64,000 nt of DNA from Bradyrhizobium diazoefficiens (GTDB lineage Bacteria; Pseudomonadota; Alphaproteobacteria; Rhizobiales; Xanthobacteraceae): contig NZ_CP067100.1 of assembly GCF_016616235.1 (NCBI RefSeq), positions 2,911,001 through 2,975,000 on the forward strand. The letters are read 5' to 3'. The first letter of the stretch is position 1. Each line of letters starts with the position of its first letter. Of this stretch, positions 9,597 through 28,530 are shown in pieces. The notes below the pieces were generated by a model that worked only from the letters and a program-made list of their open reading frames with translations, did no database searches and had not been told where the DNA came from. A program made the position numbers and the translations under genes.

Positions 9597-10415
9597 TCAC
9601 CAGGCGCTCAAGCCGCCATCGACCGCGATGTTCTGACCCGTGACGTAGGAGGCCGCATCCGAAACCAGGAACAGCATGGCGCCAACCATCTCGTCTGCGC
9701 GCGCCATCCGCCCGAGCGGAACGCGATTGCCGTAGCGCTGCTTGAAGGTGTCGTTCTGCCCGCTCTCGACGCCGCCCGGCGTCAGCGTGTTGACGCGCAC
9801 GCCGCGGCCGGCCCAGTAGGTGGCGAGGTGCTTGGTCAGTCCGATCACGCCCGCTTTGGAAGCGGTGTAGACCGCCGGCGTGTTGATGGCGCGGCCGAGA
9901 TATTCGGAGCCCTCATAGATGCGCTGGTCGGGCGCCATCAGCCCATAGATCGAGGCGGTCTGCACGATGCTGCCATAGCCGCGCTCGGCCATCCGGCCGC
10001 CGAACACCTGCGCGACGGTGAACATGCCGTCGAGATTGACCGACATGATCTCGCGCCAGGTGTCCTGCGAGAATGTCTCGACTGGCGCGAAGAAGGCGTC
10101 GATGTCGCGGGTCTTGCTGGCGGCATTGTTGAGCAGGATCGACACGGCGCCGAGCCCGGCCTCGATCGCTTCGGCCGTGGCACGCACAGCATCAGGATCG
10201 GTGATGTCGCAGCCAAACCCGTTCGCGCGCACGGAATGGCGCGCGGCGAGCTCGCTCGCGACGCCATCCGCGGTCGCCTGATCGAGGTCGACGATGGCGA
10301 CATCGGCGCCGAATTCGGCAAGGCCGTCGGCGAAGCGGCGGCCGAGAATGCCGCAGCCGCCGGTGACGACGGCGGTGCGCCCCTTGAGGTCGAACAGCGC
10401 CTTGAAGCTCGTCAT
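9597..10415 (-). CDS. ptmA: PtmA-like short-chain dehydrogenase
   Basis: A 272-residue classical SDR. The NAD(P)-binding motif TGGCGILG is at 18-25, NNAAS near 96-100, catalytic S155 and the YTASK pair Y183/K187, ending in the usual VDGGLSAW tail. In Campylobacter the gene order ptmE-ptmF-legF(ptmB)-ptmA sits in the legionaminic acid region. The same order is found here, which supports the name. PtmA and PtmF are thought to act early, in supplying the amino-hexose precursor; the exact reaction is not shown by this sequence. The start overlaps the legF stop by four bases (ATGA), so the two are translationally coupled. Confidence 0.75.
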   Translation of the reverse strand: MTSFKALFDLKGRTAVVTGGCGILGRRFADGLAEFGADVAIVDLDQATADGVASELAARHSVRANGFGCDITDPDAVRATAEAIEAGLGAVSILLNNAASKTRDIDAFFAPVETFSQDTWREIMSVNLDGMFTVAQVFGGRMAERGYGSIVQTASIYGLMAPDQRIYEGSEYLGRAINTPAVYTASKAGVIGLTKHLATYWAGRGVRVNTLTPGGVESGQNDTFKQRYGNRVPLGRMARADEMVGAMLFLVSDAASYVTGQNIAVDGGLSAW

Positions 10416-11128
10416 GATGATGTCCCCCGGAGCTCCTGACGTTGACGGAAGAGGAGCTCGACCAGTGCGAAGTCGACCTCGGAATCGATGTCGACCGAAC
10501 GTTCCTCCGGCATCTCGAACAGGCGAGTGTCCGGATAGAACACCGCCGGCTTGTCGAGGAATGCAGCGACGCGCCAGACGTAGATCGAGGCGTTCATGTC
10601 GAAGCAGCGCGGGCTGTCCTGCCGCCGCACGATCGGCGGATCGGCGATCTTGGAGAGGCCGACGCTGCCGTCCTTGCGCTCCTCGACCAGATTGAAATAG
10701 GGCGAGCGGCGGGCGGGCGCGCCGGTGATGACGTTCGGCGCGCCGCTGTCGCGGAGCAGCGCGACGGCGCCGGTGACGTCGGAGGCAAGCCGCAGCGGCG
10801 AGGTGACGTCGAGATCGACGAAGATCTCGGGCGTGTGCCCGGTGCGCAGCATCGCCTGTTCGAGACAGTGGCGGATCGCGGGGATTTTCGGCGCAGCATC
10901 AGTCGCCATCTCGTCCGGGCGCTTGACCGCGATGTCGGCGCCGGAGCGCAGCGCTTCCTCGAGCAACGCATCGGAGTCGCTGCTGAACGCGATCGCCGTG
11001 AACAGGCCGGTCTGCCTGGCCTGCTCGATCGTCCAGGCCAGCAGCGGCCGGCCGAGGAGGGTGCGGCTGTTCTTGCCGACGACGCCCTTGGAGCCGCCGC
11101 GGGCGCATATGGTGCAGATCAGGCTCAT
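10412..11128 (-). CDS. legF: CMP-nonulosonate synthetase (LegF/NeuA family)
   Basis: A 238-residue acylneuraminate cytidylyltransferase. The CTP-binding motif ARGGSKGVVGKN lies at residues 9-20, DLDVTSPLR near 125-133 supplies acidic metal ligands, and DIDSEVDFALVE near the C terminus is the family signature that binds the sugar acid and metal. It activates a nonulosonic acid with CTP to CMP-nonulosonate and pyrophosphate, in the cytoplasm. It is coupled on both sides: its start overlaps the ptmF stop by four bases and its stop overlaps the ptmA start. A second, divergent synthetase is encoded at 25929. By position this one serves the LegI product. Confidence 0.88.
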   Translation of the reverse strand: MSLICTICARGGSKGVVGKNSRTLLGRPLLAWTIEQARQTGLFTAIAFSSDSDALLEEALRSGADIAVKRPDEMATDAAPKIPAIRHCLEQAMLRTGHTPEIFVDLDVTSPLRLASDVTGAVALLRDSGAPNVITGAPARRSPYFNLVEERKDGSVGLSKIADPPIVRRQDSPRCFDMNASIYVWRVAAFLDKPAVFYPDTRLFEMPEERSVDIDSEVDFALVELLFRQRQELRGTSS

Positions 11129-12033
11129 GCGAAAACCCAGCTCTTCGAATTCAGCGCGCGTTCGCTGGCCTCGATCAAATCCACCACGGCAAGGCCCTCG
11201 GTGAGCGAGCAGATCGGACCATCGCCGCTCAGCGCCGCCTGATGCATCGCCCGATAGCTCGTGTCGCGTTCGCTCGCAAAGTGTGTGGCGACGCCATTGA
11301 TGATCAGATTGCCGCCGGCGAGGTCGGCTTCGATCGTCTCGTCGGCGAGGTTGATGCGGATGCGGCGCAGGCCCGCGCGGTCGAGATAGTCGAGATGAAC
11401 CTGCACGACCTGCGCCCGCGCCATCTGCATCAGCAGCGCGAGGTGATCGTCAACCTCGAGATCGCGCGCGCCGGAGGCGCCGCCGAGCGCGGCGACGCGC
11501 TGCCATGGGCCGAACAGCCAGAGCAGATAGTCGAGCTCGTGGCTGAGGTCGCGCAGCACGCCGCCGCCAGCGGCAATGGTCGAGGAAGCGGTGGCGCGAT
11601 GATCGCGGCCGGGCCGCCAATCCCTGATGTCCTGTCCGACATAGGCCGAGACCGTGATCGCGGAGCGGCCGTCGAGGCGCGCTGCGAGCGCGGCCATCAC
11701 GGGATGGAAGCGCAGATTATAGGCGACGAGCAGCTGCGCAAACGGAAAGGCCGGCAGCGGCTCGGACCTTGCGAGCATCGGCTTTTCCACCAGAACGGTG
11801 CCGCGAAAACCTGCCTCTGCAAGCTCGCGCAACGCGCCAATGTGCTGCGCCGTCTCGGTCGCGATGACGACGTAATCGACCTGACGGCGCGACAGCGCTT
11901 CGCCAAGGCTGGTGTGATCACCGCCGCCGCGGCGGCTGACGGTCGTCACCGCAACGCCGAGCTCCGCGAGGATGCGGGCATGGCGGGTTCCGATCGACCC
12001 CAGGCCTGCGACCACAGCGGTGCGAGCGTTCAC
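11125..12033 (-). CDS. ptmF: PtmF-like Gfo/Idh/MocA oxidoreductase
   Basis: A 302-residue NAD(P)-dependent oxidoreductase. The Rossmann motif GLGSIG is at 10-15 and the family EKP motif (EKPM, 83-86) carries the catalytic-site lysine. The C-terminal half has the alpha/beta fold of this family (LSHELDYLLWLFG). I place the start at a GTG at 12033 because it overlaps the ptmE stop as GTGA, and because the 22 codons upstream would run inside ptmE. Together with ptmA it probably helps provide the amino-sugar phosphate feeding GDP-sugar synthesis. The exact substrate is not evident from sequence. Confidence 0.75.
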   Translation of the reverse strand: MNARTAVVAGLGSIGTRHARILAELGVAVTTVSRRGGGDHTSLGEALSRRQVDYVVIATETAQHIGALRELAEAGFRGTVLVEKPMLARSEPLPAFPFAQLLVAYNLRFHPVMAALAARLDGRSAITVSAYVGQDIRDWRPGRDHRATASSTIAAGGGVLRDLSHELDYLLWLFGPWQRVAALGGASGARDLEVDDHLALLMQMARAQVVQVHLDYLDRAGLRRIRINLADETIEADLAGGNLIINGVATHFASERDTSYRAMHQAALSGDGPICSLTEGLAVVDLIEASERALNSKSWVFA

Positions 12034-13076
12034 TGGAAGACCTCGTGAAACTCGGCATGCGCTTGCTCGAAATCTTCGACCCGGCCGATGTCGAGCCAAT
12101 ACTCCCGGATCGGATAGACTGCGACGCGGCCTTCGTTCGCCACGACGCGCTCCAGCACCGCCGGCATGTCGACCCTGACGCCGCGCTCGACGAGCCCGAA
12201 CACGTTGGGACCGATCACGTAGATACCGGCGCTCACGAACCAGCTCTCGGTCGGCTTCTCGCGGATGACCTGGAGGTATCCATCCGACGCGGTGACGACG
12301 CCGTAGGGAACGTGAACCTTGTGCTCGCGCACGGCCATCGTCGCTTCCGCGGGCGATGCATTGTGGAAATCGACCAGCGCGCCGTAATTGATGGTCGTGA
12401 GAATGTCGCCATTGGTCACGACGAGCGGCAGATCGGGCCTTGACGGAAACAGACCGAGCGCGCCGGCGGTGCCGAGGCGCTCGGTTTCGTGGATGTAGCG
12501 AATCGCTGCGCCGAACGCGGTGCCGTCGCCGAAATGATTCTGGATCAGCTCGGCCTTGTAGTTCACCGAGATGAAGATGTTGCGGAAGCCCTGCTGCACG
12601 AAATTGCGCACGATGGTCTCGATCAGCGGGCGGCCGCCGACGTGAAGCATCGGCTTCGGCATCTCGCGTGTCAGCGCGCCCAGGCGCTCACCGAGCCCGC
12701 CGGCCATGATCAGCACCGGATTTTCGTATTGCGGTGCTTCGATCAGCTCGTCGAAGGTTTCGACGCCGATCACCTTGCCGTTGGCATCGAGCAGCGGAAG
12801 CTGCTTGATCGACTTCTGCCGCATCAGGCCGAGGCGCTCGTCGCGCGGCAGGGTGGCGGAAGCCGACACCGGGGTCGAGTTCATCACGTCGATCGCGCGG
12901 CCGTTCAGCGCGATACCGCGGAGCAGTCCGCGCCGGATATCGCCGTCGGTGACGATGCCGGCGAGCTTGCCGTCGTCGAGGACCAGCGCGATCTGGATGC
13001 TGCCGCTTTCGATGGCGGCAATGGCCTCGCTCACCGTGGCTTCCGTTCCAACGATGGCTTTTTGCCAGGACTTCAT
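12030..13076 (-). CDS. ptmE: PtmE-like CBS-domain sugar-1-phosphate guanylyltransferase
   Basis: A 348-residue protein. Two CBS domains (about 7-54 and 62-112) precede a nucleotidyltransferase domain with AGGLGERLG (125-133) and the KPML motif (141-144). This architecture is that of Campylobacter PtmE, which makes the GDP-activated amino-hexose that starts legionaminic acid synthesis; a GDP rather than UDP or dTDP product is inferred from that resemblance. The CBS pair probably binds an adenine or other nucleotide and could tune pathway entry. It follows the formyltransferase gene after an 83-base gap and overlaps ptmF by four bases. Confidence 0.8.
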   Translation of the reverse strand: MKSWQKAIVGTEATVSEAIAAIESGSIQIALVLDDGKLAGIVTDGDIRRGLLRGIALNGRAIDVMNSTPVSASATLPRDERLGLMRQKSIKQLPLLDANGKVIGVETFDELIEAPQYENPVLIMAGGLGERLGALTREMPKPMLHVGGRPLIETIVRNFVQQGFRNIFISVNYKAELIQNHFGDGTAFGAAIRYIHETERLGTAGALGLFPSRPDLPLVVTNGDILTTINYGALVDFHNASPAEATMAVREHKVHVPYGVVTASDGYLQVIREKPTESWFVSAGIYVIGPNVFGLVERGVRVDMPAVLERVVANEGRVAVYPIREYWLDIGRVEDFEQAHAEFHEVFQ

Positions 13077-13159: not shown

Positions 13160-14158
13160 TCAATCCCTGCGGCCGGGCTCCAGTTTGGCCTCCAGTGCCG
13201 CCAGTTTCGCCTCGGCCTTTGTCAGTTCGGCCCGGAGATTTCGGCCGAGCCGGCTGCCGCGCGTGGCGTCCGGAACGAGGGCTGCGCCGAGGGCGCCGTC
13301 GGTTCCGACCGCTGCCCAGCGCGTGATCCGGATGAAGGTGTCGCCGGTCTTGACCAGGATGCCGGCACTGTCTCTGCCGATCACCTCGCCGGGGGCGCCG
13401 ATATAGGATCTCGCGCCCGGAATCAGCTCGGCGGCAAGGACGGCGCAGGATTTATCTTTCCACATCGTGCGCGCGCCCGGGCCGGGCGGCACCAGCGCAC
13501 GGACGAAGCGCTCCAGCGCGGCGCTGCCGGAGCTCCAGTCGATTTCCTCGTCGCCCTCCCGGCGCCGGCAGCAGTAAAGGCCGACCGGATCGATCGTCGA
13601 CTGCACGATGCGCTTGTCGGTGCCGTGGTAGACGTCGGAGATCGCGTCGACCAGCGTGTCGGCGCACAGTGTCTCGGCCGTCTTGAGCAGCGTTGCATAA
13701 GTATCGGTCGCGGAGATCGGCACCTTGATCTGCCGTACGATGTCGCCGGTGTCGATGCCGAGATCGACCCAGTGGACCGTGATGCCGAATTCGGTCTCGC
13801 CGTTGATCAGCGCCCAGGTCAAGGGATTGCGGCCGCGGTAGAACGGCAGCGCGCCGGCATGGCAATTGAGCGTGCCGCGCGGCGGCAGTGCCAGGATCTG
13901 CTCGCGCAGAATCTGGTCGTAGGACATCGAGACGTGAAGCTCGGCCGCAAATGTCGCGATCTCGGCAAGGCTCTCGGGCGCGTTGACGGCTGCTGGCCGC
14001 AGCACCGGAATGTTTTTCGTTTCGGCCAGCGCCATCAGCGTCGCATCGGGGCGGGATGAGCGCACCGCGACAAAGGCGATGGTGTAGCGGGGATCGTCGA
14101 TCAGCCGGGCGAAGGCGCGTTGCGCCCAGACGCCGTCGCCGAAATAGCCGATCCTCAT
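13160..14158 (-). CDS. Sugar N-formyltransferase (Fmt-like, N10-formyl-THF dependent)
   Basis: A 332-residue formyltransferase. The catalytic triad Asn98-His100-Asp136 is visible in TLNCHAGALPFYRGRNP and GIDTGDIV, with the same N-x-H and 36-residue H-to-D spacing as methionyl-tRNA formyltransferase. A C-terminal Fmt_C-like domain (about 200-290) and a short coiled coil (about 305-325) follow. Sugar N-formyltransferases use N10-formyltetrahydrofolate to formylate 4-amino-4,6-dideoxy nucleotide sugars. Its start overlaps the legI stop by four bases, and no LegH-type N-acetyltransferase was seen in the window. I infer that it formylates the amine installed by LegC, giving a 7-formamido nonulosonate. 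A tRNA role is unlikely given this context. Confidence 0.8.
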   Translation of the reverse strand: MRIGYFGDGVWAQRAFARLIDDPRYTIAFVAVRSSRPDATLMALAETKNIPVLRPAAVNAPESLAEIATFAAELHVSMSYDQILREQILALPPRGTLNCHAGALPFYRGRNPLTWALINGETEFGITVHWVDLGIDTGDIVRQIKVPISATDTYATLLKTAETLCADTLVDAISDVYHGTDKRIVQSTIDPVGLYCCRRREGDEEIDWSSGSAALERFVRALVPPGPGARTMWKDKSCAVLAAELIPGARSYIGAPGEVIGRDSAGILVKTGDTFIRITRWAAVGTDGALGAALVPDATRGSRLGRNLRAELTKAEAKLAALEAKLEPGRRD

Positions 14159-15222
14159 AATGGGTCTTCCTCGTCATAGGGACGGGTGACCGTGGTGCCG
14201 ATCAGCGACCAATATTCGATCGGCGGACGGCCGGAGCCCGGCCGCTTGCAGGTGAGATCCTCAGGGCTCAGCACGTCGCCGGGCTTCAACGCGCGCGCAG
14301 CGACAATGCTCTTGCGGGCGATGTCGATGTTCTTGATCTCGGAATTCTTGGGCGTCTTGATGCCGTCGCCGCGCGCCTGCTCGATTTGGCGGATGGCGGT
14401 GACCATGCGCTTGAAATCGGCGGGCTCGAGCGAAGCCGCGTGATCCGGCCCTTCGGCGTTACGGTCGAGCGTGAGATGCTTCTCGATGATGGTGGCGCCC
14501 ATCGCCACGGCCGCGAGCGAGATCTCGATGCCGTCGGTGTGGTCGGAATAGCCGACCGGGAGCTGGAAGGCGGTCCGCATCGTCTGCATTGCGGCGAGGT
14601 TCACGTCGCCGGGCGGGCAGGGATATTCGGTCGTGCAGTGAAGCAGGCTGACGCGCTCGGCCAAGCGCGTGCGGGATTCGCTCTCGCGCCATGCGGCGCG
14701 GAAGGCGGCAACGCTCGGCGGCGTATTGCTGCGGCCATAGCCGTGCGCGAGCACGCCCAGCGCCTCCTCGACCTCGATCAGCGTCGCCATGCCGGTCGAC
14801 AGGATCAGCGGTATGTCCGCGCGCGCAACCGCATGCAGCAGCGGCGCATTGGTCAGATCGCCCGAGCCGATCTTGACCCGGGGCAGGCCGAGCGTGAGCA
14901 GGAAATTCAGCGATTGATGGTCGAATGGTGTCGACAGAAACTCGATGCCGCGCTCCTTGGCGCGCGCGATCAGCGGCGGATGCGCCGCATGCGGCAATTC
15001 GAGCCGCTTCAGCATCGCCTGCTGGCTCTCGGCGGCATCCGTGGTGCGCTGCTGGTAATCGGCCTTGCGCGCGCTCTTGCCGGCGAGCGAGTTGGCGTTG
15101 AAGGTCTGGAACTTGACGATGTCGGCGCCGGCATCGGCGGCCGCATCGACGAGGGCGAGGGCGGTGTCCAGGCTACCGGAATGATTGACGCCGGCTTCGG
15201 CGATGATGAGCGTGCGCGTCAT
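14155..15222 (-). CDS. legI: Nonulosonic acid synthase (LegI/NeuB family)
   Basis: A 355-residue NeuB-family enzyme that condenses a 6-carbon 2,4-diamino sugar with phosphoenolpyruvate to give a nine-carbon acid. The TIM barrel shows EAGVNHSG (9-16), KFQTF (37-41), KIGSGD (117-122), HCTTEYP (195-201), GYSDHT (224-229) and EKHLTLDRN (247-255), all family hallmarks. The C-terminal 60 residues form the SAF antifreeze-like domain that caps the neighbouring active site in the dimer. It overlaps legG upstream and the formyltransferase downstream by four bases each. The leg assignment comes from the neighbouring legB/legC/legG genes. NeuB for N-acetylneuraminate is less likely. Confidence 0.88.
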   Translation of the reverse strand: MTRTLIIAEAGVNHSGSLDTALALVDAAADAGADIVKFQTFNANSLAGKSARKADYQQRTTDAAESQQAMLKRLELPHAAHPPLIARAKERGIEFLSTPFDHQSLNFLLTLGLPRVKIGSGDLTNAPLLHAVARADIPLILSTGMATLIEVEEALGVLAHGYGRSNTPPSVAAFRAAWRESESRTRLAERVSLLHCTTEYPCPPGDVNLAAMQTMRTAFQLPVGYSDHTDGIEISLAAVAMGATIIEKHLTLDRNAEGPDHAASLEPADFKRMVTAIRQIEQARGDGIKTPKNSEIKNIDIARKSIVAARALKPGDVLSPEDLTCKRPGSGRPPIEYWSLIGTTVTRPYDEEDPL

Positions 15223-16382
15223 GTCGCGGCCTCGTAGAAGCCCTTCTTCAGCAGCGTGTTGAAATCCGGAATCGATGCGATCTTGTCGGCGACGCGGCGG
15301 CTGGTCTCGCCGTCGCCATAGGGGCTGACCGTCGGCTGCCGTCCGCGCGCGAGCGCGTCGGCGATCGCCTTCGAGATCGACGCGCGATCGGGCGCGGCGT
15401 GGAACACGGAGGCGGCGCGCTCGCGTCCCTTCTGTCGGTCGCCGATGTCGACGGTCGGGACGTTGAGCGAGGGCGCTTCATAGATGCCGCTCGACGAATT
15501 GCCGACGACGACGTCGGCCTGGTTCATCAGGCTGATGTAGCGCAGCTGTCCGAGCGAGGCGACCGCGATGGCGTTGGGCCTGCCGGCGACGAAGGCCTTG
15601 ATCCGTTCGTTGAGCGCGCGGCCTTCGGCATCGGCATTCGCGAGCGTGAAGAACAGGCTGAACTCCGGATCGAGCGCGGCGAGCGCTGCGAACAATTCAT
15701 CCAGCGCGCCGACCGAGCGGTCCATCTCGACCGTGACAGGGTGGAACGTCACCAGCACGTTGCGCTGGCCGAGCTTCATCCCGACCTCGCGGCCGATGGT
15801 TTCGCGATCCATCAGTTTGAGGCGCTTGATCGAGTCGATGCCGGGCGAGCCCACGGTGAAGACGCGTGCGGGATCCTCGCCGAGACGGGTCAGCCGCCGC
15901 GCCGAATCGGCGTTGGTGGCAAAATGCAGATGCGACATCTTGGTGATGGCGTGACGGATGGCTTCGTCGATCGCGCCTTCGGTGACGTCGCCGCCGAACA
16001 GATGCGCCATCGGCAGCCGCATGAACATGGCGGCCTGCGCCGCCGCAAAGGTCTCGTAGCGGTCGCCGAGTACGACGACGAGGTCCGGCTTGAGCCGGGC
16101 GAAGGCATCGGCAAATCCGATCACGCCAAGGCCGACCGACTTGGAGACGCCGACCCCGGAATCGCTCGAAAGCAGCGTCTCGACGCTTTCGTCGACCTCA
16201 AAACCTTCGTCGCGGATGTTGTCGATGGTGTAGCCGAACTCGGGCGACAGGTGCATGCCGGTGGCGATGAGCTGGAGCGTCAAGCCGGGCGTTTCGCGGA
16301 TCGCGCGCATCGGCCAGATGATGAGGCCGAAATCGGCGCGGCTGCCCGTGACGAAACAGATTTTGCGGTTTGGTTTACTCAT
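15219..16382 (-). CDS. legG: Hydrolysing NDP-sugar 2-epimerase (LegG/NeuC family)
   Basis: A 387-residue GT-B-fold epimerase. GSRADFG (13-19), GDRYETF (106-112), GGDVTEGAIDEAIRHAITK (130-148) and GNSSSGIYEAP define the hydrolysing branch of the UDP-GlcNAc 2-epimerase family. The enzyme inverts C2 and releases the nucleotide, giving the free manno-configured diamino sugar that LegI condenses. In the GDP pathway LegG acts on the GDP-linked diamino sugar, which I infer here from the ptmE neighbour. It overlaps legC by eight bases and legI by four, so stoichiometric translation with both is likely. Confidence 0.87.
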   Translation of the reverse strand: MSKPNRKICFVTGSRADFGLIIWPMRAIRETPGLTLQLIATGMHLSPEFGYTIDNIRDEGFEVDESVETLLSSDSGVGVSKSVGLGVIGFADAFARLKPDLVVVLGDRYETFAAAQAAMFMRLPMAHLFGGDVTEGAIDEAIRHAITKMSHLHFATNADSARRLTRLGEDPARVFTVGSPGIDSIKRLKLMDRETIGREVGMKLGQRNVLVTFHPVTVEMDRSVGALDELFAALAALDPEFSLFFTLANADAEGRALNERIKAFVAGRPNAIAVASLGQLRYISLMNQADVVVGNSSSGIYEAPSLNVPTVDIGDRQKGRERAASVFHAAPDRASISKAIADALARGRQPTVSPYGDGETSRRVADKIASIPDFNTLLKKGFYEAAT

Positions 16383-17634
16383 CGCGGGCCTGGATGCTGG
16401 CGCTGGAAGGAAGATTGATCAGGCGGCGCTCGATCGATTCGGCGGTCGCGAGATCGCCGCGCGGGTTTTGCGCGAACATCGGCAGCCGGTGCATCAACGT
16501 CCAGGCCGGACGCGCGCCGAAGCCGGCGTCGTTCAGCGCGGTGAGCACGTCGTCGCGCCGCTCCGCATGGGCCTCGTCGAGCAGGATCGCGTTCAGCCAG
16601 TAATTGCTCGTGGTGTTTTCCGGCTCGCGCGAGAAACGCACGCCGGGAACATCCGCGAAGACACGCTCATAGGCTGCCGCGAGCCGGCGCTTGCTGGCAA
16701 GAAAGCCGTCGAGCTGCTCGAGCTGCGCGCAGCCGAGCGCGGCGTTCAGATTGGGCAGGCGATAGTTGAAGCCGATCTCGTCATGCACGAAGGCCCATTT
16801 GTGCGGCAGCTTCGCGGTGGTGGTGAGATGCTTGGCGCGGCGTCCCAGTTCCTCGTCATTGGTGAGGATGGCGCCGCCGCCGCCGGTGGTGACGATCTTG
16901 TTGCCATTGAAGCTCAGCGCTGCAAGGCGCGCCTGGGACCCGACGGCGTGACCCTTGTAGGTCGAGCCCAGCGATTCCGCGGCGTCCTCCACCAGCGCAA
17001 TGCCCCAGTCGCGGGCGATCGCAGCGATCTCGTCGAGCTCCACGGGATGGCCGAATGTGTGCATCGGCGTGATCGCAGCGATGCGGCGTCCGGTCTCGCG
17101 ATTGATCGTGCCTTTGGCAGTGCGCTCGGCGATCGCCTCGAGTCGCGCGGCGAGGGCACGCGCGTCCATGCCGAGCGTGACGAGCGAGCTGTCGACGAAA
17201 TGCGGCACCGCTCCGCAATAGGCGATCGCATTCGTGGTCGCGATGAAGGTCAGCGCCGGCGACATCACCTCGTCGCCGGGCTCGACGCCGGCGAGGCGGA
17301 AGCAGGCGTGCAGCGCCGCGGTACCGTTGACGACGGCGACGGCGCGCCTGGCGCCCGTTACTTCCTCCAGCATGCGCTCGAAGCGGTCGACGAACGGGCC
17401 GACTGAGGAGACGAAGGTGCTCTTGATGCACTCTTCGAGGTAGGAAACCTCGTTGCCGGCGAAGACCGGCTCGTGCAGGCCGAGCACGCCGTTAGGCGTG
17501 CCCGCGGCGCGCCGGACGGCATCGACGACGGCCTTTGGATCGAAGGCCTTTGGATCAAAGGCCTTGGGGTCGAAGGCCTTGGGATCGAAGGCGGCGGATT
17601 CGGATATGGCGGCGGCCAGCTTTGCCTCAGACAT
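16375..17634 (-). CDS. legC: PLP aminotransferase (LegC, DegT family)
   Basis: A 419-residue DegT/DnrJ/EryC1-family aminotransferase that puts an amine at C4 of the 4-keto-6-deoxy sugar made by LegB. Visible sites are NGTAALH (103-109, phosphate cup), EDAAES (216-221, D218 pairing with the cofactor pyridine) and SFNGNK with the PLP-binding lysine K246. The first 40 residues are unusual: four perfect FDPKA units (16-35) encoded by a 15-bp tandem repeat separate the start from the conserved domain. Alternative starts after the repeat are not obvious. Its start overlaps the legB stop by eight bases. Confidence 0.87.
   Translation of the reverse strand: MSEAKLAAAISESAAFDPKAFDPKAFDPKAFDPKAVVDAVRRAAGTPNGVLGLHEPVFAGNEVSYLEECIKSTFVSSVGPFVDRFERMLEEVTGARRAVAVVNGTAALHACFRLAGVEPGDEVMSPALTFIATTNAIAYCGAVPHFVDSSLVTLGMDARALAARLEAIAERTAKGTINRETGRRIAAITPMHTFGHPVELDEIAAIARDWGIALVEDAAESLGSTYKGHAVGSQARLAALSFNGNKIVTTGGGGAILTNDEELGRRAKHLTTTAKLPHKWAFVHDEIGFNYRLPNLNAALGCAQLEQLDGFLASKRRLAAAYERVFADVPGVRFSREPENTTSNYWLNAILLDEAHAERRDDVLTALNDAGFGARPAWTLMHRLPMFAQNPRGDLATAESIERRLINLPSSASIQARDE
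17531..17590. repeat. 15-bp tandem repeat, four units, inside legC
   Basis: Four consecutive 15-base units fill this stretch, each a variant of GCCTTTGGATCGAAG on the plus strand with one to three changes between units. Read on the minus strand they encode FDPKA four times near the LegC N terminus. Because the unit is a multiple of three, gain or loss of units would alter linker length but not frame. The near identity suggests recent slipped-strand expansion. Confidence 0.9.
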
Positions 17635-18646
17635 TGTAGACGTCCGCCTTGTAGCGGCTGAGATTGGCCGGATTGGTGAACCAGTTCACCGTCTTCACGA
17701 TGCCGCGGCGCATGCCATCGAGGCCGCCGAACTCCGGCGCCCAGCCGAGTTGCTGGCGCGCCCTGGAATTGTCGGCCCAGAGCCGCTCGACCTCGCTGTT
17801 GGCCGGACGCAAGCGCGCCTCGTCGGTCTCGATGTCGATCTCGACGCCCATCACGTCGGCAATCATCTCGACGGTCGCACCGACCGAGATCTCGAAGCCG
17901 CTGCCGAGATTGATGGTCTGGCCCACGGTCTGCTCGCTTGGCGCCGTGAGCCCCGCGATCAGGCCGCGCGCGGTGTCGGTGGCGTAGGAGAAATCACGCG
18001 TCGGGCTGATCGCGCCGAGCCGGATCCTGCGCTTGCCGGTCGCGATCTGGCTGATGATGGTCGGGATGACGGCGCGTGCCGATTGCCGCGGGCCATAGGT
18101 GTTGAACGGCCTGATGACGACCACCGGCATGTCGAACGAGGCCTGGAACGACAGCGCCATCTGGTCGGATGCGATCTTCGAGGCCGAGTAGGGCGACTGA
18201 CCGACCAGCGGATGGTTCTCCTTGATTGGCACGCTCTGCGCGGTGCCGTAGACTTCGCTGGTCGAGGTCTGCACGAAGCGGCGGACGCCAGCCATGCGAG
18301 CGGCCTGGAGGACGTTCACCGTGCCGCGCACATTGGTCTCGACGTAGGAGTCAGGCGCGACATAGGAGAAGGGAATCGCGATCAGCGCGGCCAGATGCAG
18401 CACGTCGGTGCAGCCGCTGGCGGCCGCGATCATGAAATGCGGATCGCGGATATCGCCGGCCACCACCTCCACAGACGTCATGATGTCGGCGGGAACCGTA
18501 TCCAGCCAGCCCCAGGAATTGAAGGAGTTGTAATAGACGACCGCCTTGACGCGGGCCCCGGCTTTCACCAGCTCCTCGACGACATGCGAACCGATGAAGC
18601 CGTCGCTGCCGGTAACGAGGACGCGGGCGTCCTTCAGATCTGCCAT
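17627..18646 (-). CDS. legB: NAD-dependent NDP-sugar 4,6-dehydratase (LegB)
   Basis: A 339-residue extended SDR. The NAD motif GSDGFIG lies at 13-19. The SEVYGT stretch (about 130-135) and the YSASK pair (Y153, K157) form the catalytic site, and RPFNTYGPRQ near 180-190 is typical of dehydratases that make 4-keto-6-deoxy sugars. By context it acts on GDP-GlcNAc, the PtmE product. I use the ATG at 18646; an ATG four codons upstream (18658) is also possible. It is the first gene of the tightly overlapping leg block and has a 127-base gap in front of it that may hold a promoter. Confidence 0.85.
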   Translation of the reverse strand: MADLKDARVLVTGSDGFIGSHVVEELVKAGARVKAVVYYNSFNSWGWLDTVPADIMTSVEVVAGDIRDPHFMIAAASGCTDVLHLAALIAIPFSYVAPDSYVETNVRGTVNVLQAARMAGVRRFVQTSTSEVYGTAQSVPIKENHPLVGQSPYSASKIASDQMALSFQASFDMPVVVIRPFNTYGPRQSARAVIPTIISQIATGKRRIRLGAISPTRDFSYATDTARGLIAGLTAPSEQTVGQTINLGSGFEISVGATVEMIADVMGVEIDIETDEARLRPANSEVERLWADNSRARQQLGWAPEFGGLDGMRRGIVKTVNWFTNPANLSRYKADVYNV

Positions 18647-18691
18647 GCCGGACCCCAAAGGCGATTAGGCCAGTATTCGCAACGAGATGGC

Positions 18692-18773: not shown

Positions 18774-19328
18774 CTAGGCGTTCGCGGCCGGAGCCAGGCG
18801 CTGCCTTACGAACGTCTCCAGATTTCCACCTTCGAACAGATGGCCTGCGATGCCTGCGGCCCGCGCCGCCTCCATGTCGCTGTCCCTGTCTCCGATCACC
18901 ATGCTGCGCGTCATGTCGATCGGGAAGCGCCGCGCGAGGTCCGTGATCATGCCGGGCGCCGGCTTGCGCCGTTCGCTCACGCGGCAATAGCGCGCGACCG
19001 TACCGTCGGGATGGTCGGGACAATATTCGAATGCGTCGATATGCGCGCCGATCAGCGCCAGTTGCTCCGCCATCCAGAGGTGCAGCGCAACGACGTGATG
19101 CTCCTCGTAATAGCCGCGCGCGATACCGGATTGATTGGTGATGACGAAGGCGAAATAGCCGGCATCGTTGACCGCCTTCACCGCTTCGCGCGCGCCCTCG
19201 ATCCATTCGATCTTGTGCGCCTCGAAGGTGTAGCCCGAATCGTGGTTGAGCACGCCGTCGCGATCGAAGAAGACAGCCGGACGGCGCAGCGAGGACGCTG
19301 CTCCGCCCCTAGAACTGATATCCGACAT
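18774..19328 (-). CDS. GmhB-like HAD phosphatase
   Basis: A 184-residue HAD-superfamily phosphatase of the histidinol-phosphate/heptose-bisphosphate branch. FFDRDGVLN gives the nucleophile aspartate near residue 20, followed by TNQSGIARGYY, a CPDHP zinc-like loop, RRKPAPGM and IGDRDSDMEAA (metal site). GmhB removes the C7 phosphate of heptose 1,7-bisphosphate. No heptose kinase, isomerase or epimerase is seen nearby. It may act in a sugar-phosphate step of this locus, or be a housekeeping GmhB. The ATG at 19328 overlaps the upstream dioxygenase gene by 20 bases. Confidence 0.7.
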   Translation of the reverse strand: MSDISSRGGAASSLRRPAVFFDRDGVLNHDSGYTFEAHKIEWIEGAREAVKAVNDAGYFAFVITNQSGIARGYYEEHHVVALHLWMAEQLALIGAHIDAFEYCPDHPDGTVARYCRVSERRKPAPGMITDLARRFPIDMTRSMVIGDRDSDMEAARAAGIAGHLFEGGNLETFVRQRLAPAANA

Positions 19329-20202
19329 GCTCGGGCCGATCCCGGAACGGATCGATGCAGATCCCCGCATTCGTGCTCAGCAGGTTGCGGTTCCGCGCGA
19401 AATGCGGGCGCCAATGCATGTCCGAGGGAATCAGGACGAAGGTCACGACGTCGCGGTGGTCGCGCTTGGGCGAGGTCGCCTTGTGAATGCATCCGCCGTT
19501 CTCGAACAAGAGGCGGGTGCCGACGGGGCCCTCGAGCAACCGGGTCGAGCTCTTGTCGTCGAGCCGCGAGACGAACTGGTTGATGCGGCGGCGGTCGAAG
19601 AAACCTTCCTTGCGCAGTCCGGTGCTGAAGGGCTTGTCCTTGACACTGAGCGCGCCGGTCTCGGCGACGACGTCATCGAGATAGACCATCAACTTGATCT
19701 CCTGCCGCGGGCAATTGTCGAGATGCCACAGGAAGCTGGAGTCCGGCTTGTCCGGGGTCGGCCTGGTCCGGTAGAACGAGACCGCAAAGATCTTGAAATG
19801 GCTGCCGTAATAGTTCTCGACCGCAGTCTCCAGATCCTCGTCGATGAAGTCGATGATCTCCGGAATCAGCTCGAGGCCGTCCACCATGCGGTTCATGCCG
19901 TAATTGACGACGAAACCGTCGTTCTGCTCGGCGAACTTGCGATCCACCGTCGCCTTGATCTCCTGGAGCCGTTCGGGCGTCATCTTGGAGGGCGGCGGCA
20001 GTACGGCGAAGCCGTCCTGCTTGAAGCGGTTGGCGGTTGCGAGCTGCTCGGGGGTGGCCTTCGTGAACGGCTTCCAGCTCCGCTTTGCGCTGTTTGCGTA
20101 GGCCGCGTAGCGCAGATTGATGCCGAACGAATGATTGTTGCCGAACATCGCGACGCGGGTCTGAAGGCGTGCCCTCGAAGCGATCTTGCGAAGCGATTGC
20201 AT
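19309..20202 (-). CDS. Phytanoyl-CoA dioxygenase-like Fe(II)/2-oxoglutarate oxygenase (copy 2)
   Basis: A 297-residue paralogue of the protein at 7061. WHLDNCPRQEIK supplies the HxD pair (H160, D162), CIHKATSP the distal histidine (H240), and R247/R250 could bind the oxoglutarate carboxylate. The hydrophobic strand MVYLDDV after the HxD motif matches IYLTDV in copy 1. The N-terminal 40 residues are basic and not conserved. It is 21 bases downstream of a methyltransferase-like gene and overlaps the phosphatase gene, so it is cotranscribed with the locus. The substrate is unknown. Confidence 0.65.
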   Translation of the reverse strand: MQSLRKIASRARLQTRVAMFGNNHSFGINLRYAAYANSAKRSWKPFTKATPEQLATANRFKQDGFAVLPPPSKMTPERLQEIKATVDRKFAEQNDGFVVNYGMNRMVDGLELIPEIIDFIDEDLETAVENYYGSHFKIFAVSFYRTRPTPDKPDSSFLWHLDNCPRQEIKLMVYLDDVVAETGALSVKDKPFSTGLRKEGFFDRRRINQFVSRLDDKSSTRLLEGPVGTRLLFENGGCIHKATSPKRDHRDVVTFVLIPSDMHWRPHFARNRNLLSTNAGICIDPFRDRPEHVGYQF

Positions 20203-23679: not shown

Positions 23680-25932
23680 TCAGCGGTTCTCGAAAGCCGC
23701 GAGTCGTTGCAGCGCGATGCGGAATCCCTCGCCGTCGTTCTCGTGTCCCTGCCAGATTTCCGGGATGAACGAGGCCTGCGGCGCCTGCCGGTTCAGCACC
23801 CGGAAGACGTTGCCGAAGTCGATCTCGCCTTCGCCGATCTGGAGGCCCTCGCCGTCGACGCCGCGGGCGTCGGCCATGTGGACATGGGCGACGAACGAGC
23901 CGATCTCCTCCATGAACTCGTCGAACGACCAGCTGTTCTCGGTGCATGCGAGCTGGGAATGCGAGGTGTCGAAGCAGATGCGGACCCCGAGCTCGCGGCA
24001 GCTGCGCGCGATGTCGGCGCTGGAGACGAACAGATTGTGATAGCGCTGGCCGCCGAAATGCCATGGGTAGGGCGGCATGGTCTGCGGCCAGAGCTCGACC
24101 GCGGGATCGGCGAGCTCGCGGACGCTGGCACGCAGATGAGCCTCGCGCACGGCCCGTTCTTCCGCGGTCAGGAACCGCGTTGACGAGAAGCCGCCGACAT
24201 TGCAGATGATGCCGACCGGGCCGTCATTGCGAAAACGCTGCGCCAGCGCCTTGGTCTTGGCGATGACGCGCTTCATCTCCGCGATCGAGCGGGTGCGATA
24301 GGCATCGTCCGGTATCGTCAGATCGAGCACGTGGTCGCCCTCGAACAGCTCCGGCGCATGCACGATCAACCCGCACGGATAGCTGGCGGCGAGGAAGTCA
24401 GCATCGTTGATGCCGAGGTCGCGGTAGCTCAGATGAAACTCGACGAAGTCAGGGGCGATCGCCGCGATCAGCTTGTCGGCGTCGCGATGGCGCACCGGGA
24501 CGCCCCAGGGGCGGCGGAAGCTGATCTTTCCACCGGCCGCGAGCCCGCCGAGCTCCGAAATGTCTGATGGATAGAGCGGCGTCTGTGCCGGGATCGCGCG
24601 CGGCGCCTTCCGGCCGATCACCTCGTCGATGCGGTTCGGCGACAGGCCCTGGCCCGGGCTGCGGATCTCGATCATCTCCCGCGTGATCGTCGCGCCGGCT
24701 GCGATGGCATCGACGGCGAAGATCGATTTGCCGAGGCTAATGCGGTTGGCCTTCTCACCCTGGCTGAGGATGCGCGGCAGGACGCTGCCGAGGGAGTCCT
24801 CGACCTGGCGCACACCTTCGACCATGCGCTTGAACTCGTGCGGCAGCAGGCTAACCTTGTGGTCGTTGCCTTCCTGGTCGCGCGACAGCGTGAAATGCTT
24901 CTCGATCAGGCGCCCGCCCATCGCCACCGCCGCGACCGACACGAAGACGTCGCGCTCGTGCCCGGAATAGCCGACCACGCTCTCGCACAGCTCCTGCAGG
25001 CGCAGCATGTATTTCAGGTTGATGTCGCGGAATGGCGCTGGATAGGTCGAGTTGCAGTGGAGCATGACGTACTCCGCGCCGGACGTCTGGAACAGCTTCA
25101 CGGTCTCGCGGATCTCGTCCTCGGTCGACATGCCGGTCGAGCAGATGATGGGAATCCTTTGGTCGACGATATGCCTTAGCAGCTCGTGATTGGTCAGGTC
25201 GGCGGACGCGGTCTTGATCGCCTTCAAGCCGTAGGCGCGGCACTTGTCCGCGCTGTTGACGTCGAAGGCGGTGCAGAGCGGCTCCATGCCGAGCGAGGCC
25301 GAATAGTCGAAGCAGCGATAGAGGTCCTCGTCGCTGAGCTGGAAGCGGTCGAGCAGGTCGAGCACGTATTCGGTGCCGAGGTCCTCGCTCTGTCCCTTGG
25401 TGCGCTTGCCGTAGAGGCCGGCCATGTCGCGCATCTGGAATTTGGCGGCGTCGGCGCCGGCCTCCGCGGCCGCCTTGATCAGGGCAAAGGCGGCCTCCAG
25501 GCTGCCATTGTGGTTGTTGCCGATCTCCGCGATCAGGAAGGTCGGATTCTCTTCCGCGATGGTGCGGCTGCCGATGCTGATGCCTTCGCCGGGATGGCGC
25601 TGGCGGGCGACGCCAACGACGTGGCGCTCGGCGTCGACCAGCGGCACGTAGAGCACCTCGCGGAGCAGGCGATTGGCGGTCTCGCGGTCACCGGCGACGG
25701 CGCTGCGGACGCGCCGGTTGCAGAGATCGCCGACGGCGGCCTGCACGCCGGACGCGGCGCCCGCGCCGATCCAGCGGATGATGTCGCCGTTCGAAAGGCT
25801 GCCGAGCAGCCGGCCGCTGCCGTCGACGCAGAACACGATCTCGCGCCGGTTCGCCGCAACCTTGCTCGCCGCCTCCTGGATGGAGGCGTCCTCGTGCACC
25901 AGATAGCTCTGAAGATCTCTGTCGATGATCAT
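23680..25932 (-). CDS. CBS-NeuB-SAF-TIM-barrel fusion, second nonulosonate synthase
   Basis: A 750-residue, four-part protein. Residues 8-113 form a CBS pair. Residues 130-395 form a NeuB barrel with AEIGNNHNG (135-143), KFQMR (164-168), KTASAD (240-245), HCNSTYP (292-298), GYSGHE (321-326) and EKHFTLSRDQEGNDH (344-358). A SAF domain spans about 398-460. Residues 470-750 form a xylose-isomerase/AP-endonuclease-type barrel with metal-site motifs VEFH (497-500), FDTSHS (654-659), HVHMAD (683-688) and EIWQGHENDGEGF (725-737). NeuB enzymes condense PEP with an aldose. The added barrel suggests an aldose-ketose isomerase or epimerase making or modifying the substrate. Its start overlaps the second CMP synthetase by four bases. 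The product is unknown. Confidence 0.85.
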   Translation of the reverse strand: MIIDRDLQSYLVHEDASIQEAASKVAANRREIVFCVDGSGRLLGSLSNGDIIRWIGAGAASGVQAAVGDLCNRRVRSAVAGDRETANRLLREVLYVPLVDAERHVVGVARQRHPGEGISIGSRTIAEENPTFLIAEIGNNHNGSLEAAFALIKAAAEAGADAAKFQMRDMAGLYGKRTKGQSEDLGTEYVLDLLDRFQLSDEDLYRCFDYSASLGMEPLCTAFDVNSADKCRAYGLKAIKTASADLTNHELLRHIVDQRIPIICSTGMSTEDEIRETVKLFQTSGAEYVMLHCNSTYPAPFRDINLKYMLRLQELCESVVGYSGHERDVFVSVAAVAMGGRLIEKHFTLSRDQEGNDHKVSLLPHEFKRMVEGVRQVEDSLGSVLPRILSQGEKANRISLGKSIFAVDAIAAGATITREMIEIRSPGQGLSPNRIDEVIGRKAPRAIPAQTPLYPSDISELGGLAAGGKISFRRPWGVPVRHRDADKLIAAIAPDFVEFHLSYRDLGINDADFLAASYPCGLIVHAPELFEGDHVLDLTIPDDAYRTRSIAEMKRVIAKTKALAQRFRNDGPVGIICNVGGFSSTRFLTAEERAVREAHLRASVRELADPAVELWPQTMPPYPWHFGGQRYHNLFVSSADIARSCRELGVRICFDTSHSQLACTENSWSFDEFMEEIGSFVAHVHMADARGVDGEGLQIGEGEIDFGNVFRVLNRQAPQASFIPEIWQGHENDGEGFRIALQRLAAFENR

Positions 25933-26618
25933 CCTGCGATGTTCCTGCGGAACGTGGCTTCGAGCGCCTCCCAGTCGGAGAGCTCGTCGAGCTCGATGCT
26001 CGTGCTCTCATCCATCTCATGGACGGCGATCTTGCCGTGAAGGCGCGCGCTGCCATGACGCAGCCGGTCCACGGTCGAAATGTAGAATGCGCCGTTCTCC
26101 ATCAGCGTGCCTTTCCACTGCTGGCGCAGCGGGCGCCTCGCCGGATCGTAGTTGATCGGCGTGCCGTCGTCATTCCAGAAGAACCGCCGGGTCCTGACGC
26201 AGGTGACGAGCGAATCCGCGCCGCTCGCCGCCAGATGGGAGATCGCCGCCGAAACGTCCCGATGCGTTGTCTGCGGGCTCGTCGCCTGCGCGGTGAGGAG
26301 ATATTTTTCCGTGATGTCGCAGGCGCCGATCAGGTCGTAGATCGCTTCTTCGGTCGTGGAGCTGTCGGCCGCCAGATGGGCTGGGCGGGGGTGGATGAGA
26401 ATCCGGGAATCGATCGACCTCACCACTGCGGCGATCTCCTCGCTGTCGGTCGACACGAAGACGCGCGAGACCATGTCGCAGTCGAGCAGCGCCCGCAGCG
26501 TCCAGGCGCAGAGCGGCGCGCCGCAAAACGGTCTGATGTTCTTGCCGGGGATGGATTTCGAGCCGCCGCGCAGCGGAACCACTGCGGCAAAGCTCGGTTT
26601 GCCAGGTGGGGCGCTCAT
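25929..26618 (-). CDS. Second CMP-nonulosonate synthetase-like cytidylyltransferase
   Basis: A 229-residue cytidylyltransferase. The CTP motif is VPLRGGSKSIPGKN (about 14-27), in which LRGGSK replaces the usual ARGGSK, with STDSEEIA near 57-64 and TAQATSPQTTHRD near 107-119. The C terminus holds MDESTSIELDELSDWEALE, the acidic motif that binds sugar acid and metal. I use the ATG at 26618; the frame is open for 34 more codons into the divergent intergenic region. It is translationally coupled (4-base overlap) to the NeuB fusion, so it should activate that enzyme's product. It is clearly different in sequence from the LegF at 10412. Confidence 0.8.
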   Translation of the reverse strand: MSAPPGKPSFAAVVPLRGGSKSIPGKNIRPFCGAPLCAWTLRALLDCDMVSRVFVSTDSEEIAAVVRSIDSRILIHPRPAHLAADSSTTEEAIYDLIGACDITEKYLLTAQATSPQTTHRDVSAAISHLAASGADSLVTCVRTRRFFWNDDGTPINYDPARRPLRQQWKGTLMENGAFYISTVDRLRHGSARLHGKIAVHEMDESTSIELDELSDWEALEATFRRNIAG

Positions 26619-26690
26619 GGAATCAATGCCAGTTGACCGGTCCGAAACCGGAGGTATTTGGTGCCCTTGATATCCGCGGAGAGCCGTCCG

Positions 26691-26708
26691 GCCAATGTTG
26701 CCATTGGC
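26691..26708. promoter_or_regulatory. Perfect palindrome in the divergent intergenic region
   Basis: GCCAATG and CATTGGC form a perfect 7-bp inverted repeat with a TTGC centre. It lies 73 bases before the minus-strand cytidylyltransferase start and 178 bases before the carbamoyltransferase start. In the 268-base gap it could be an operator controlling both arms of the locus. No confident promoter was found here: a TATAGA at 26857-26862 has TTTACA only 14 bases before it. Function is inferred from symmetry and place alone. Confidence 0.4.
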
Positions 26709-26886
26709 AGGGCATAACATCGTGGCCTGCCCGGAAGCAAGGCGGGGCGCTCCCGCAAAATGCCGCCGGATCGAGGCCGTTCCGCTTCGGGAAAACGGGC
26801 CGGTCTTGGCCCCGAGAAGGAGCGGGCCGCGCGCGATTTACATTGCCCTCAGTTCCTATAGAAGGCTCCCAAGGGGTCTACACGAC

Positions 26887-28530
26887 ATGTATGTGATCGG
26901 AATCAGTTCGGGGATCAAGCACGGCCATCATGATGGCGCGGCGGTGCTGTTGCGCGACGGCGAGTTGATTGCCGCCGCCGAGGAGGAGCGCTTCACGCTG
27001 GCCAAGCATGCGCGCGGCGAGCTGCCGCGCGGGGCGATCGGCTTCTGCCTGAAGCAGGCCGGCATGACGATGCGCGACGTCGACTGGATCTGCTCGCCGC
27101 TGAAGACCTATACGAACTACACGCAGCGTCTCACCGAATATTTCAAGTACCAGTTCGGCCACAGCCCGAAGATCGAGCTTTACGACCATCATCTCTGTCA
27201 TACCGCGAGCTCATTCTACGGCTCCGGTTTTGCCGAGGCGACGGTGGCCTGCTTCGACTTCTCGGGCGATTCCAGCTCCGGCCTCGTCGCCCATGCACGC
27301 GGCAACGATTTTCGCGTGCTGACACGGTTCGGCCGCCACAACAGTCTCGGTCTCTATTACGGGATGCTGACGCAGTATCTCGGCTATCAGATGACCAATG
27401 ACGAGTACAAGGTCATGGGACTGTCCTCCTATGGCAGCCCCGAATATCTCGACAAGTTCGCCAGGCTCTTGCGGCCCAACGGCCTCAACTACGAGCTCGA
27501 TCCCGAGCTCGACAAGCGCCGGCGCGATGCCGAGATCTTCACCAGTGATTTCTCGACGCGGCAGGAGCGCATCTTCACCGAGAAGATGGAGGAGATTCTG
27601 GGGCCGCGGCGGCTGCGCGGCGCGCCGCTTGATCAGCGTCTGACCAACATAGCCGCCAGCGGCCAGAAGCAGCTCGAGATCGTCGCCACCGAGGTGATCC
27701 GCTCCGCGATTGCCGAGACCGGCTGCGGCGATGTCTGCATCGCCGGCGGCGTCGGATTGAACTGCAAGATGAACATGGAGATCGCGGCCGAGCCGTCGGT
27801 GAAGCGTCTCTACGTTCCGCCAGTGCCGCACGATGCGGGTGTGGCGCTGGGCGCAGCGATGATGAAATGCGCCGAGGCGGGCTACGCGATCGCGCCGCTG
27901 ACCCATGCCTATTGGGGACCGGAATATTCCAACGACACGATCCGGGAGACGCTGGACAAGATCGGCGCGAAGTTCGAGCTGCTCGATGATCCCGTGTCGC
28001 GCTGCGTCAGCGACCTCACGGATCAGAAGACGGTCGGCTGGTTCCAGGGACGGATGGAGTACGGCCCGCGTGCGCTCGGCAACCGCTCGATCCTGGCCGA
28101 TCCGCGCCATGCCGGCATGAAGGACCGCATCAACGTCACGATCAAATATCGCGAGGAGTTCCGTCCGTTCTGCCCGTCGGTGCTGTACGAGCGCCAGGCC
28201 GAGTATTTCGAGGACACGTTCGACGCGCCCTTCATGGTGGTGACGTTTCCGGTCAACGAGAAGGTCGCGGAAACCATGCCGGCAGTGGTCCATGTCGACA
28301 ACACCGCGCGTATCCAGAGCGTCCATGCCGACAGCAACCCGCTCTACAGCCGCCTGATCGGCGAGTTCGAGAAAGCGACCTCGCTGCCGGTGCTGATCAA
28401 CACCAGCCTCAACATCAACGAGCAGCCGACGGTGAACGCGCCGCTGGAGGCGCTGCATACCTATTTTTGCTCGGGTTTGGACGTGCTCTATCTCGGCAAT
28501 TATCGGCTGTCGAAATCAGCCGGGACCTGA
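26887..28530 (+). CDS. NodU/CmcH-family O-carbamoyltransferase
   Basis: A 547-residue carbamoyltransferase that moves a carbamoyl group from carbamoyl phosphate, by way of an adenylate, to a sugar hydroxyl. Motifs are HHDGAAVLL (14-22), EEERF (32-36), DHHLCHTASSFY (100-111) and DFSGDSSSG (124-132) of the Kae1-like half, then the GRMEYGPRALGNRSILADPR block near 385-405 of the YrdC-like half. The start ATG has AAGGGG ten bases upstream. NodU carbamoylates Nod factors, but no nod genes are nearby. In this O-antigen locus it is more likely to carbamoylate a sugar of the repeat unit. It begins the plus-strand block. Confidence 0.88.
   Translation: MYVIGISSGIKHGHHDGAAVLLRDGELIAAAEEERFTLAKHARGELPRGAIGFCLKQAGMTMRDVDWICSPLKTYTNYTQRLTEYFKYQFGHSPKIELYDHHLCHTASSFYGSGFAEATVACFDFSGDSSSGLVAHARGNDFRVLTRFGRHNSLGLYYGMLTQYLGYQMTNDEYKVMGLSSYGSPEYLDKFARLLRPNGLNYELDPELDKRRRDAEIFTSDFSTRQERIFTEKMEEILGPRRLRGAPLDQRLTNIAASGQKQLEIVATEVIRSAIAETGCGDVCIAGGVGLNCKMNMEIAAEPSVKRLYVPPVPHDAGVALGAAMMKCAEAGYAIAPLTHAYWGPEYSNDTIRETLDKIGAKFELLDDPVSRCVSDLTDQKTVGWFQGRMEYGPRALGNRSILADPRHAGMKDRINVTIKYREEFRPFCPSVLYERQAEYFEDTFDAPFMVVTFPVNEKVAETMPAVVHVDNTARIQSVHADSNPLYSRLIGEFEKATSLPVLINTSLNINEQPTVNAPLEALHTYFCSGLDVLYLGNYRLSKSAGT

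Follow-up and report, generated by a model that had tools for sequence, protein, structure and literature searches.

The closest described relative of the gene considered here is neuB of the Serratia marcescens KL1 and KL2 capsule loci, a 2241-bp gene beside neuA that joins a PF03102 domain to a COG1082 domain. Its loss lowered sialic acid fourfold and abolished the capsule, which contains 3-deoxy-D-glycero-D-galacto-non-2-ulosonic acid (KDN), checked against a purified standard, with about one twentieth as much N-acetylneuraminic acid (Neu5Ac) (PMC9000132). In the available part of that paper, the authors take the extra domain to suggest additional functional properties and assign none (PMC9000132). 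A second route to what is likely the same end product, CMP-KDN, runs through KDN-9-phosphate in Bacteroides thetaiotaomicron and Prymnesium parvum: it too involves a CMP-synthetase, the known KDN synthases take mannose-6-phosphate and need a separate phosphatase, the Prymnesium enzyme refuses mannose, and the available part of the source mentions no isomerase fusion (PMC6200933). We compared these systems with a gene in a 64,000-nucleotide stretch of Bradyrhizobium diazoefficiens (contig NZ_CP067100.1, positions 2,911,001 to 2,975,000; hereafter, the window). It encodes a fusion of a CBS region, a NeuB domain, a SAF domain and a xylose-isomerase-like TIM barrel (Table 1). Like this fusion, the Serratia protein combines PF03102 with COG1082/AP_endonuc_2, both being about 746 to 750 residues long with a cytidylyltransferase gene alongside. 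It is needed for a KDN-rich capsule and lies in an enterobacterial capsule locus, whereas the window's fusion lies beside a legionaminate gene set; the two were compared by described architecture and not by sequence, and the available part of the paper leaves a CBS region unmentioned (PMC9000132).

An earlier reading made from the letters of the window (hereafter, the sequence-only reading) had proposed a 750-residue protein with all of these domains, and this was borne out by the open reading frame (ORF) and by four Pfam models above their curated cut-offs: NeuB at residues 151 to 383 (E = 3e-73), SAF at 403 to 458 (2e-9), AP_endonuc_2 at 490 to 744 (8e-23), and CBS at 12 to 55 (7e-6). The PF03102 and SAF scores (246.5 and 38.3 bits) place the protein in the NeuB superfamily of phosphoenolpyruvate (PEP)-dependent synthases. 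Against the equivalog models for N-acetylneuraminate synthase (TIGR03569; 291.6 bits, cut-off 399.65) and pseudaminic acid synthase (TIGR03586; 226.6 bits, cut-off 340.25), it stays under the cut-off. A whole-protein search gave 7,567 matches among 8,000 candidates scored; most of the 120 listed are about 750 residues long and match the NeuB, SAF and barrel models, with a weaker CBS model in part. Since full-length homologues with identical domain order are numerous, the architecture is not a chance product. Named close relatives (86-95% identical) come from Bradyrhizobium, and Klebsiella has members of 746 residues. One of these, P0276, shares 47% identity with the window protein along its entire length and belongs to the same 26-row clade. 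The fusion is genuine and clearly defined, but its database names are loose: where NCBI or JGI name it, they use N-acetylneuraminate synthase, SpsE/sugar phosphate isomerase/epimerase or TIM barrel protein. Its architecture is neither unique nor wholly undescribed. The suggestion that this may be an undescribed system is partly wrong, given the wide spread of the fusion and the genetic study of one member (PMC9000132, in its available part): what is new is the distinct clade with its fused isomerase, what is known is one group's KDN genetics. Among open-licence papers (subscription papers were not covered) we recognised this genetic work and nothing on the reaction of the barrel or on the CBS region, and the available part of PMC12077157 adds no biochemistry of the barrel.

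Residues were compared over 314 family rows, comprising the window protein, 80 loci, and 233 of 360 searched proteins (700-800 residues; 127 dropped), with near copies kept. The 80 loci are the best 80 of at least 572 confirmed stretches with the fusion in the genome collection, found with the patterns VGYSGHER and PQTMPP[YF]P; for them, conservation inside the motifs, that of Gln617 included, is partly by construction, whereas positions 244, 425, 655, 685 and 725 lie outside the patterns. The catalytic, PEP-binding and metal positions that we compared with nmNeuB are present and invariant in these rows, except for H215 (313 rows). The roles of these residues (catalytic Lys, Ser, metal His, PEP binding) are those assigned in nmNeuB, part of them in PMC7371886. 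According to the available part of the same source, the residue at 'position 132', Gly in Neu and Leg synthases and Phe in Pse synthases, seems to determine how the N-acetyl group at C2 fits (PMC7371886). By count on the nmNeuB alignment, this position is nm G133 and residue 244 of the fusion, where all 314 family rows have Ala instead of Gly or Phe. Residue 425, in the SAF domain at the position of nmNeuB Arg314, is Ser, Gly, Ala or Cys in every family row and never Arg. In nmNeuB, Arg314 contacts the N-acetyl group of the substrate. Seven of seven reference synthases (annotated or cut-off-named proteins, not all laboratory-studied) carry Arg there, as do 27 of the 29 further PF03102 rows of our tree (the others being one Gly and one gap); position 244 in these 29, which are the best-scoring ones and hence biased to NeuB and Leg types, is Gly in 26, Phe in 2 and Met in 1. 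Other sugar-site differences from nmNeuB (E134 to Asp; N184 to Ser or Ala) are not telling. Judged from the alignments, residues 244 and 425, near C2 of the sugar, are diagnostic for the fusion family against NeuB, LegI and PseI. The altered C2 pocket fits KDN, because KDN has no acetamido group.

The tree agrees in setting the family apart. Among 64 NeuB-SAF rows, one long-stemmed branch (100/100; 100% of 200 bootstrap trees) separates all 28 fusion rows from those of NeuB, LegI and PseI, so that the domain does not fall within ordinary NeuB. Neither of the two outcomes that were to refute the sequence-only reading was seen, since the NeuB domain has its catalytic residues, lies outside ordinary NeuB and is followed by a confidently predicted barrel. 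NeuB, LegI and PseI (TIGR03569, TIGR03586) share the NeuB and SAF domains and the catalytic residues with the fusion, which differs from them in its scores, clade and C2-pocket residues and in the added CBS region and barrel. Its NeuB motifs (HCNSTYP, GYSGHE) also differ, as the sequence-only reading had stated, from those of the LegI paralogue in the same locus (HCTTEYP, GYSDHT).

We propose, with about as much belief as doubt, that the fusion is a KDN-type synthase in a small pathway. The barrel, as a metal-dependent sugar isomerase, would convert fructose or fructose-6-phosphate into a D-manno aldose and pass it to the synthase; the NeuB-SAF part would condense PEP with mannose or mannose-6-phosphate, which have a hydroxyl and not an acetamido group at C2, to give KDN or KDN-9-phosphate; the partner synthetase would turn the acid into CMP-KDN; the N-terminal CBS region would be a regulatory add-on; and the neighbouring Leg genes would make a second, different acid. 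The phosphorylated form of the substrate is a live alternative because the known KDN synthases use mannose-6-phosphate, but no phosphatase is a regular neighbour. The idea that the protein's own isomerase domain prepares the substrate thus appears plausible; a novel acid is not favoured, as KDN, which the closest experimentally studied case yields, is already known (PMC9000132, in its available part). More tentatively, and with rather more doubt than belief, we suggest that the two genes form a self-feeding, CBS-controlled pathway from ketose through KDN to CMP-KDN, that the synthase represents a class set apart by its specificity from NeuB, LegI and PseI, and that KDN is among the commoner bacterial nonulosonates. 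The fusions are annotated as N-acetylneuraminate synthase or SpsE/isomerase, yet the residues of the C2 pocket, together with one genetic study, suggest a deaminated acid. If this is true, many annotated 'sialic acid' producers, cyanobacteria included, would be KDN producers, with two alignment positions as predictors, and the joining of an isomerase to the PEP-condensing synthase that it feeds would put a pathway on a single chain, which is unusual. Two acids from one locus may bear on the surface polysaccharide and, should the host be a symbiont, on symbiosis too. We considered a link with bradyrhizose, a Bradyrhizobium sugar, and dropped it, as the family is spread over many phyla.

The interesting part of the fusion is the reaction of its barrel. 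The barrel is confidently predicted to be intact (pLDDT 90), the fold covers the whole domain, and the best fold matches are sugar epimerases, with structural alignments of 13-19% identity to 3-epimerases and 9-14% to xylose isomerases. The metal-site motifs had been called intact, and this holds for Asp655, His658 and Glu725 (314 of 314 family rows) and for His685 (313); at what appears to be the beta-5 position, where the metal ligand is normally Glu, all 314 rows have Gln617, which would leave three of the four canonical ligands, by an assignment that uses predicted strands and the numbering of D-tagatose 3-epimerase rather than a superposition. Gln617 is also kept in two CBS-less fusions found by another route than the motif patterns. 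The barrel thus differs from the D-tagatose, D-allulose and L-ketose 3-epimerases and from xylose isomerase by Gln at one ligand position and by its fusion to a PEP-dependent synthase. Because ketose 3-epimerases are the closest folds, the barrel might instead epimerise a hexose (e.g. at C3) and the synthase use an unusual aldose to make another 5-hydroxy nonulosonate, which we regard as unlikely. The modest identity between the window protein and the Klebsiella member would fit such a product, as would two Bradyrhizobium CBS-less fusions with changes at otherwise invariant positions (see below); however, 65 NeuB-SAF positions are invariant in 26 diverse fusion rows, the window protein and two Klebsiella proteins included, pointing to one substrate, and the KDN of Serratia was checked against a purified standard (PMC9000132, in its available part).

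It is less probable still that the synthase makes KDN-9-phosphate from metabolic mannose-6-phosphate and that the barrel is no isomerase but a metal-dependent phosphatase that takes the phosphate off again; the known KDN synthases, which use mannose-6-phosphate, need such an enzyme (PMC6200933, in its available part). No phosphatase is regularly found near the fusion: a haloacid dehalogenase (HAD) protein like that of the window occurs near it in only 4 of 83 loci, so we rejected this protein as an obligate partner. Likewise, no HAD family is among the 25 commonest of 103 Pfam families in 148 near neighbours, with at most 3 of 148 per HAD family (148 of 159 neighbours, 60-900 residues, two genes each side, from 38 of the 80 loci). 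The superfamily includes EndoIV and CbiR, and His525 (314 of 314 family rows) and Asp693 (305 of 314) could bind extra metals. Against a phosphatase stand the epimerase fold matches, the functional redundancy of sugar phosphatases (PMC6200933, in its available part), by which none need be encoded nearby, and the lack of a one-to-one alignment for the extra EndoIV ligands. The invariant Gln at a canonical Glu position would also suit a catalytically dead barrel with a role in assembly or regulation only, which we consider very improbable: the barrel is constrained nearly as strongly as NeuB (invariant positions in the 314 rows: 29 of 272 in the barrel, 33 of 258 in NeuB; mean pairwise identity 0.55 and 0.64, respectively), and Asp655, His658, Glu695 and Glu725 are kept in all 314 rows and His685 in 313. 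A stand-alone barrel of known function was sought among the best 120 of 1061 matches, which are mostly partial copies of the fusion, with a few stand-alone barrels (e.g. P0144, P0186) and no informative name. The names L-ribulose-5-phosphate 3-epimerase, CbiR and fructoselysine 3-epimerase were not used, as these NCBIfam matches are far under cut-off.

The best 80 loci are spread over ten phyla: Pseudomonadota, Cyanobacteriota, Bacillota, Actinomycetota, Chloroflexota, Verrucomicrobiota, Bacteroidota, Thermodesulfobacteriota, Campylobacterota and Spirochaetales (several loci are metagenome bins, and phyla were taken from titles and partly from the tree set). A plasmid search found at least 80% of the protein in 1 of 72,556 records (Ensifer canadensis). 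A CMP-synthetase of the same cluster as the window's accompanies the fusion in 59 of 81 loci, the window's included, within two genes in 52 and adjacent in 41. The other 22 include several truncated loci, six with long flanks and at least three with a synthetase nearer to the Leg-branch type. In 49 genomes from the 80 loci, mostly isolates and of unstated completeness, a NeuC over cut-off is absent in 43 (30 of which have a weaker, probably WecB-type match), an AGE-family gene is absent in 29, and both are absent in 24, consistent with KDN; the remaining six have a NeuC over cut-off, so that some genomes also hold another route. That the protein is a plain Neu5Ac or Leg/Pse synthase whose fused part is mere decoration, as the minor Neu5Ac accompanying the Serratia enzyme might suggest (PMC9000132, in its available part), is extremely unlikely given the scores under both NCBIfam cut-offs, the separate long-stemmed clade, Ala244 with the lost Arg, and the missing NeuC. 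In a separate observation, putative DUF6716 glycosyltransferases and sulfotransferases lie near the fusion in 9 to 10 loci, with one member per cluster annotated; the loci listed, among them L031, L032, L042, L045, L049 and L057, are mostly from picocyanobacteria.

The CBS part is optional in the fusion. A CBS pair had been read at the N terminus, where Pfam calls a single repeat; the first ~110 residues may form a pair, as they align over 107 columns with the N terminus of the PtmE-like protein of the window (30%, 6e-8). In 117 same-genus genomes, counted by eye, 4 (the window's own included) have a CBS-bearing fusion, 93-100% identical, and 30 have a fusion whose match begins only at about residue 95-118 (46-47% identical) and which is apparently CBS-less; among the matches listed, no genome has both forms, and 32 of the 34 have a second NeuB-family gene on the same contig, no more than 30 kb away. 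About 1-2 kb upstream of the apparently CBS-less form, a separate ORF matches the CBS region in at least 29 of the 30 genomes. In one genome (G084), where Pfam finds no CBS on the fusion, this ORF is a CBS-GHMP-kinase. In such loci a CBS region is seen on three different enzymes, namely a nucleotidyltransferase (window 12030-13076, minus strand), the NeuB fusion and the GHMP kinase (L120:1892-3409), as if it were a movable regulatory part. The CBS-less fusions of G084 and G208 keep Ala244 and Ser425 but deviate at four positions that do not otherwise vary in 26 fusion rows, and may therefore yield a different product. That of G084 lies in a larger gene string (L120:1892-10119) with the CBS-GHMP-kinase, a methyltransferase, a CMP-synthetase, short-chain dehydrogenases/reductases (SDRs) and a second AP_endonuc_2 protein without significant BLAST match to the fusion barrel; this is possibly a pathway to another acid.

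In the window, a CTP-dependent synthetase of the fusion's own had been predicted; its family is upheld, its gene overlaps that of the fusion, and its likely start is the one in the sequence-only reading (Table 1). Its closest solved relative is PpNeuA (9t4z, 1.3e-44), where Pp may stand for Prymnesium parvum; for the Leg-branch paralogue, other NeuA proteins rank first. The legionaminate core lies on the same strand, and the locus also encodes an SDR, a GFO/IDH oxidoreductase and a formyltransferase. The 7.67-Mb genome has two NeuB-family genes, the fusion and the stand-alone synthase. With LegB, LegC, NeuC and NeuB-type proteins over their cut-offs on one side and the sub-cut-off fusion with its own clade and CMP-synthetase on the other, the gene content supports the earlier view that one locus holds two nonulosonate branches.

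Table 1. Features of the fusion gene and of the surrounding locus (window positions).
Feature	Position	Strand	Basis and remarks
CBS region-NeuB-SAF-xylose-isomerase-like TIM barrel fusion, 750 aa	23680..25932	-	ORF reading, Pfam, conservation, tree; putative KDN-type nonulosonate synthase
CBS region, residues ~5-113	25594..25920	-	Pfam CBS, alignment to PtmE-like N terminus; probable regulatory module
NeuB domain, residues ~128-385	24778..25551	-	Pfam, nmNeuB alignment; Ala244 at Gly/Phe specificity position
SAF (antifreeze-like) domain, residues 403-458	24559..24726	-	Pfam; Ser425 at nmNeuB Arg314 position
C-terminal TIM barrel, residues 473-744	23701..24516	-	Ketose-3-epimerase/isomerase fold; Gln617, Asp655, His658, His685, Glu725
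CMP-sugar synthetase (CTP_transf_3)	25929..26720	-	End overlaps start of fusion gene by 4 bp; likely start Met35, base 26618
Stand-alone NeuB-family synthase, LegI, legionaminate branch	14155..15222	-	TIGR03569, 469.1 bits (cut-off 399.65)
Hydrolysing 2-epimerase, NeuC/LegG type	15219..16382	-	TIGR03568, 449.1 bits (cut-off 235.9)
LegC-family aminotransferase	16375..17634	-	TIGR04181, 529.6 bits (cut-off 420)
LegB 4,6-dehydratase	17627..18658	-	TIGR04180, 498.9 bits (cut-off 475)
CBS + nucleotidyltransferase, PtmE-like	12030..13076	-	Pfam
Second CMP-sugar synthetase, legionaminate branch	10412..11128	-	Profile and structure matches
HAD phosphatase, GmhB-like, under GmhB cut-offs	18774..19370	-	Same gene string as fusion

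Adjoining the fusion locus, at 26695-28530 on the plus strand, is a divergent carbamoyltransferase that is NodU-like but far under the NodU cut-off; close copies (90-96%) occur in the Bradyrhizobium loci L004, L119 and L120, which hold either type of fusion. Finally, another NeuB fusion, of about 800 residues, was seen in other Pseudomonadota (L122, G134:C141:51114-51833; L124, G141:C5:9636-10358), and its N terminus resembles, by eye, an NAD/FAD oxidoreductase of the amine-oxidase or UDP-galactopyranose mutase (UGM) type.

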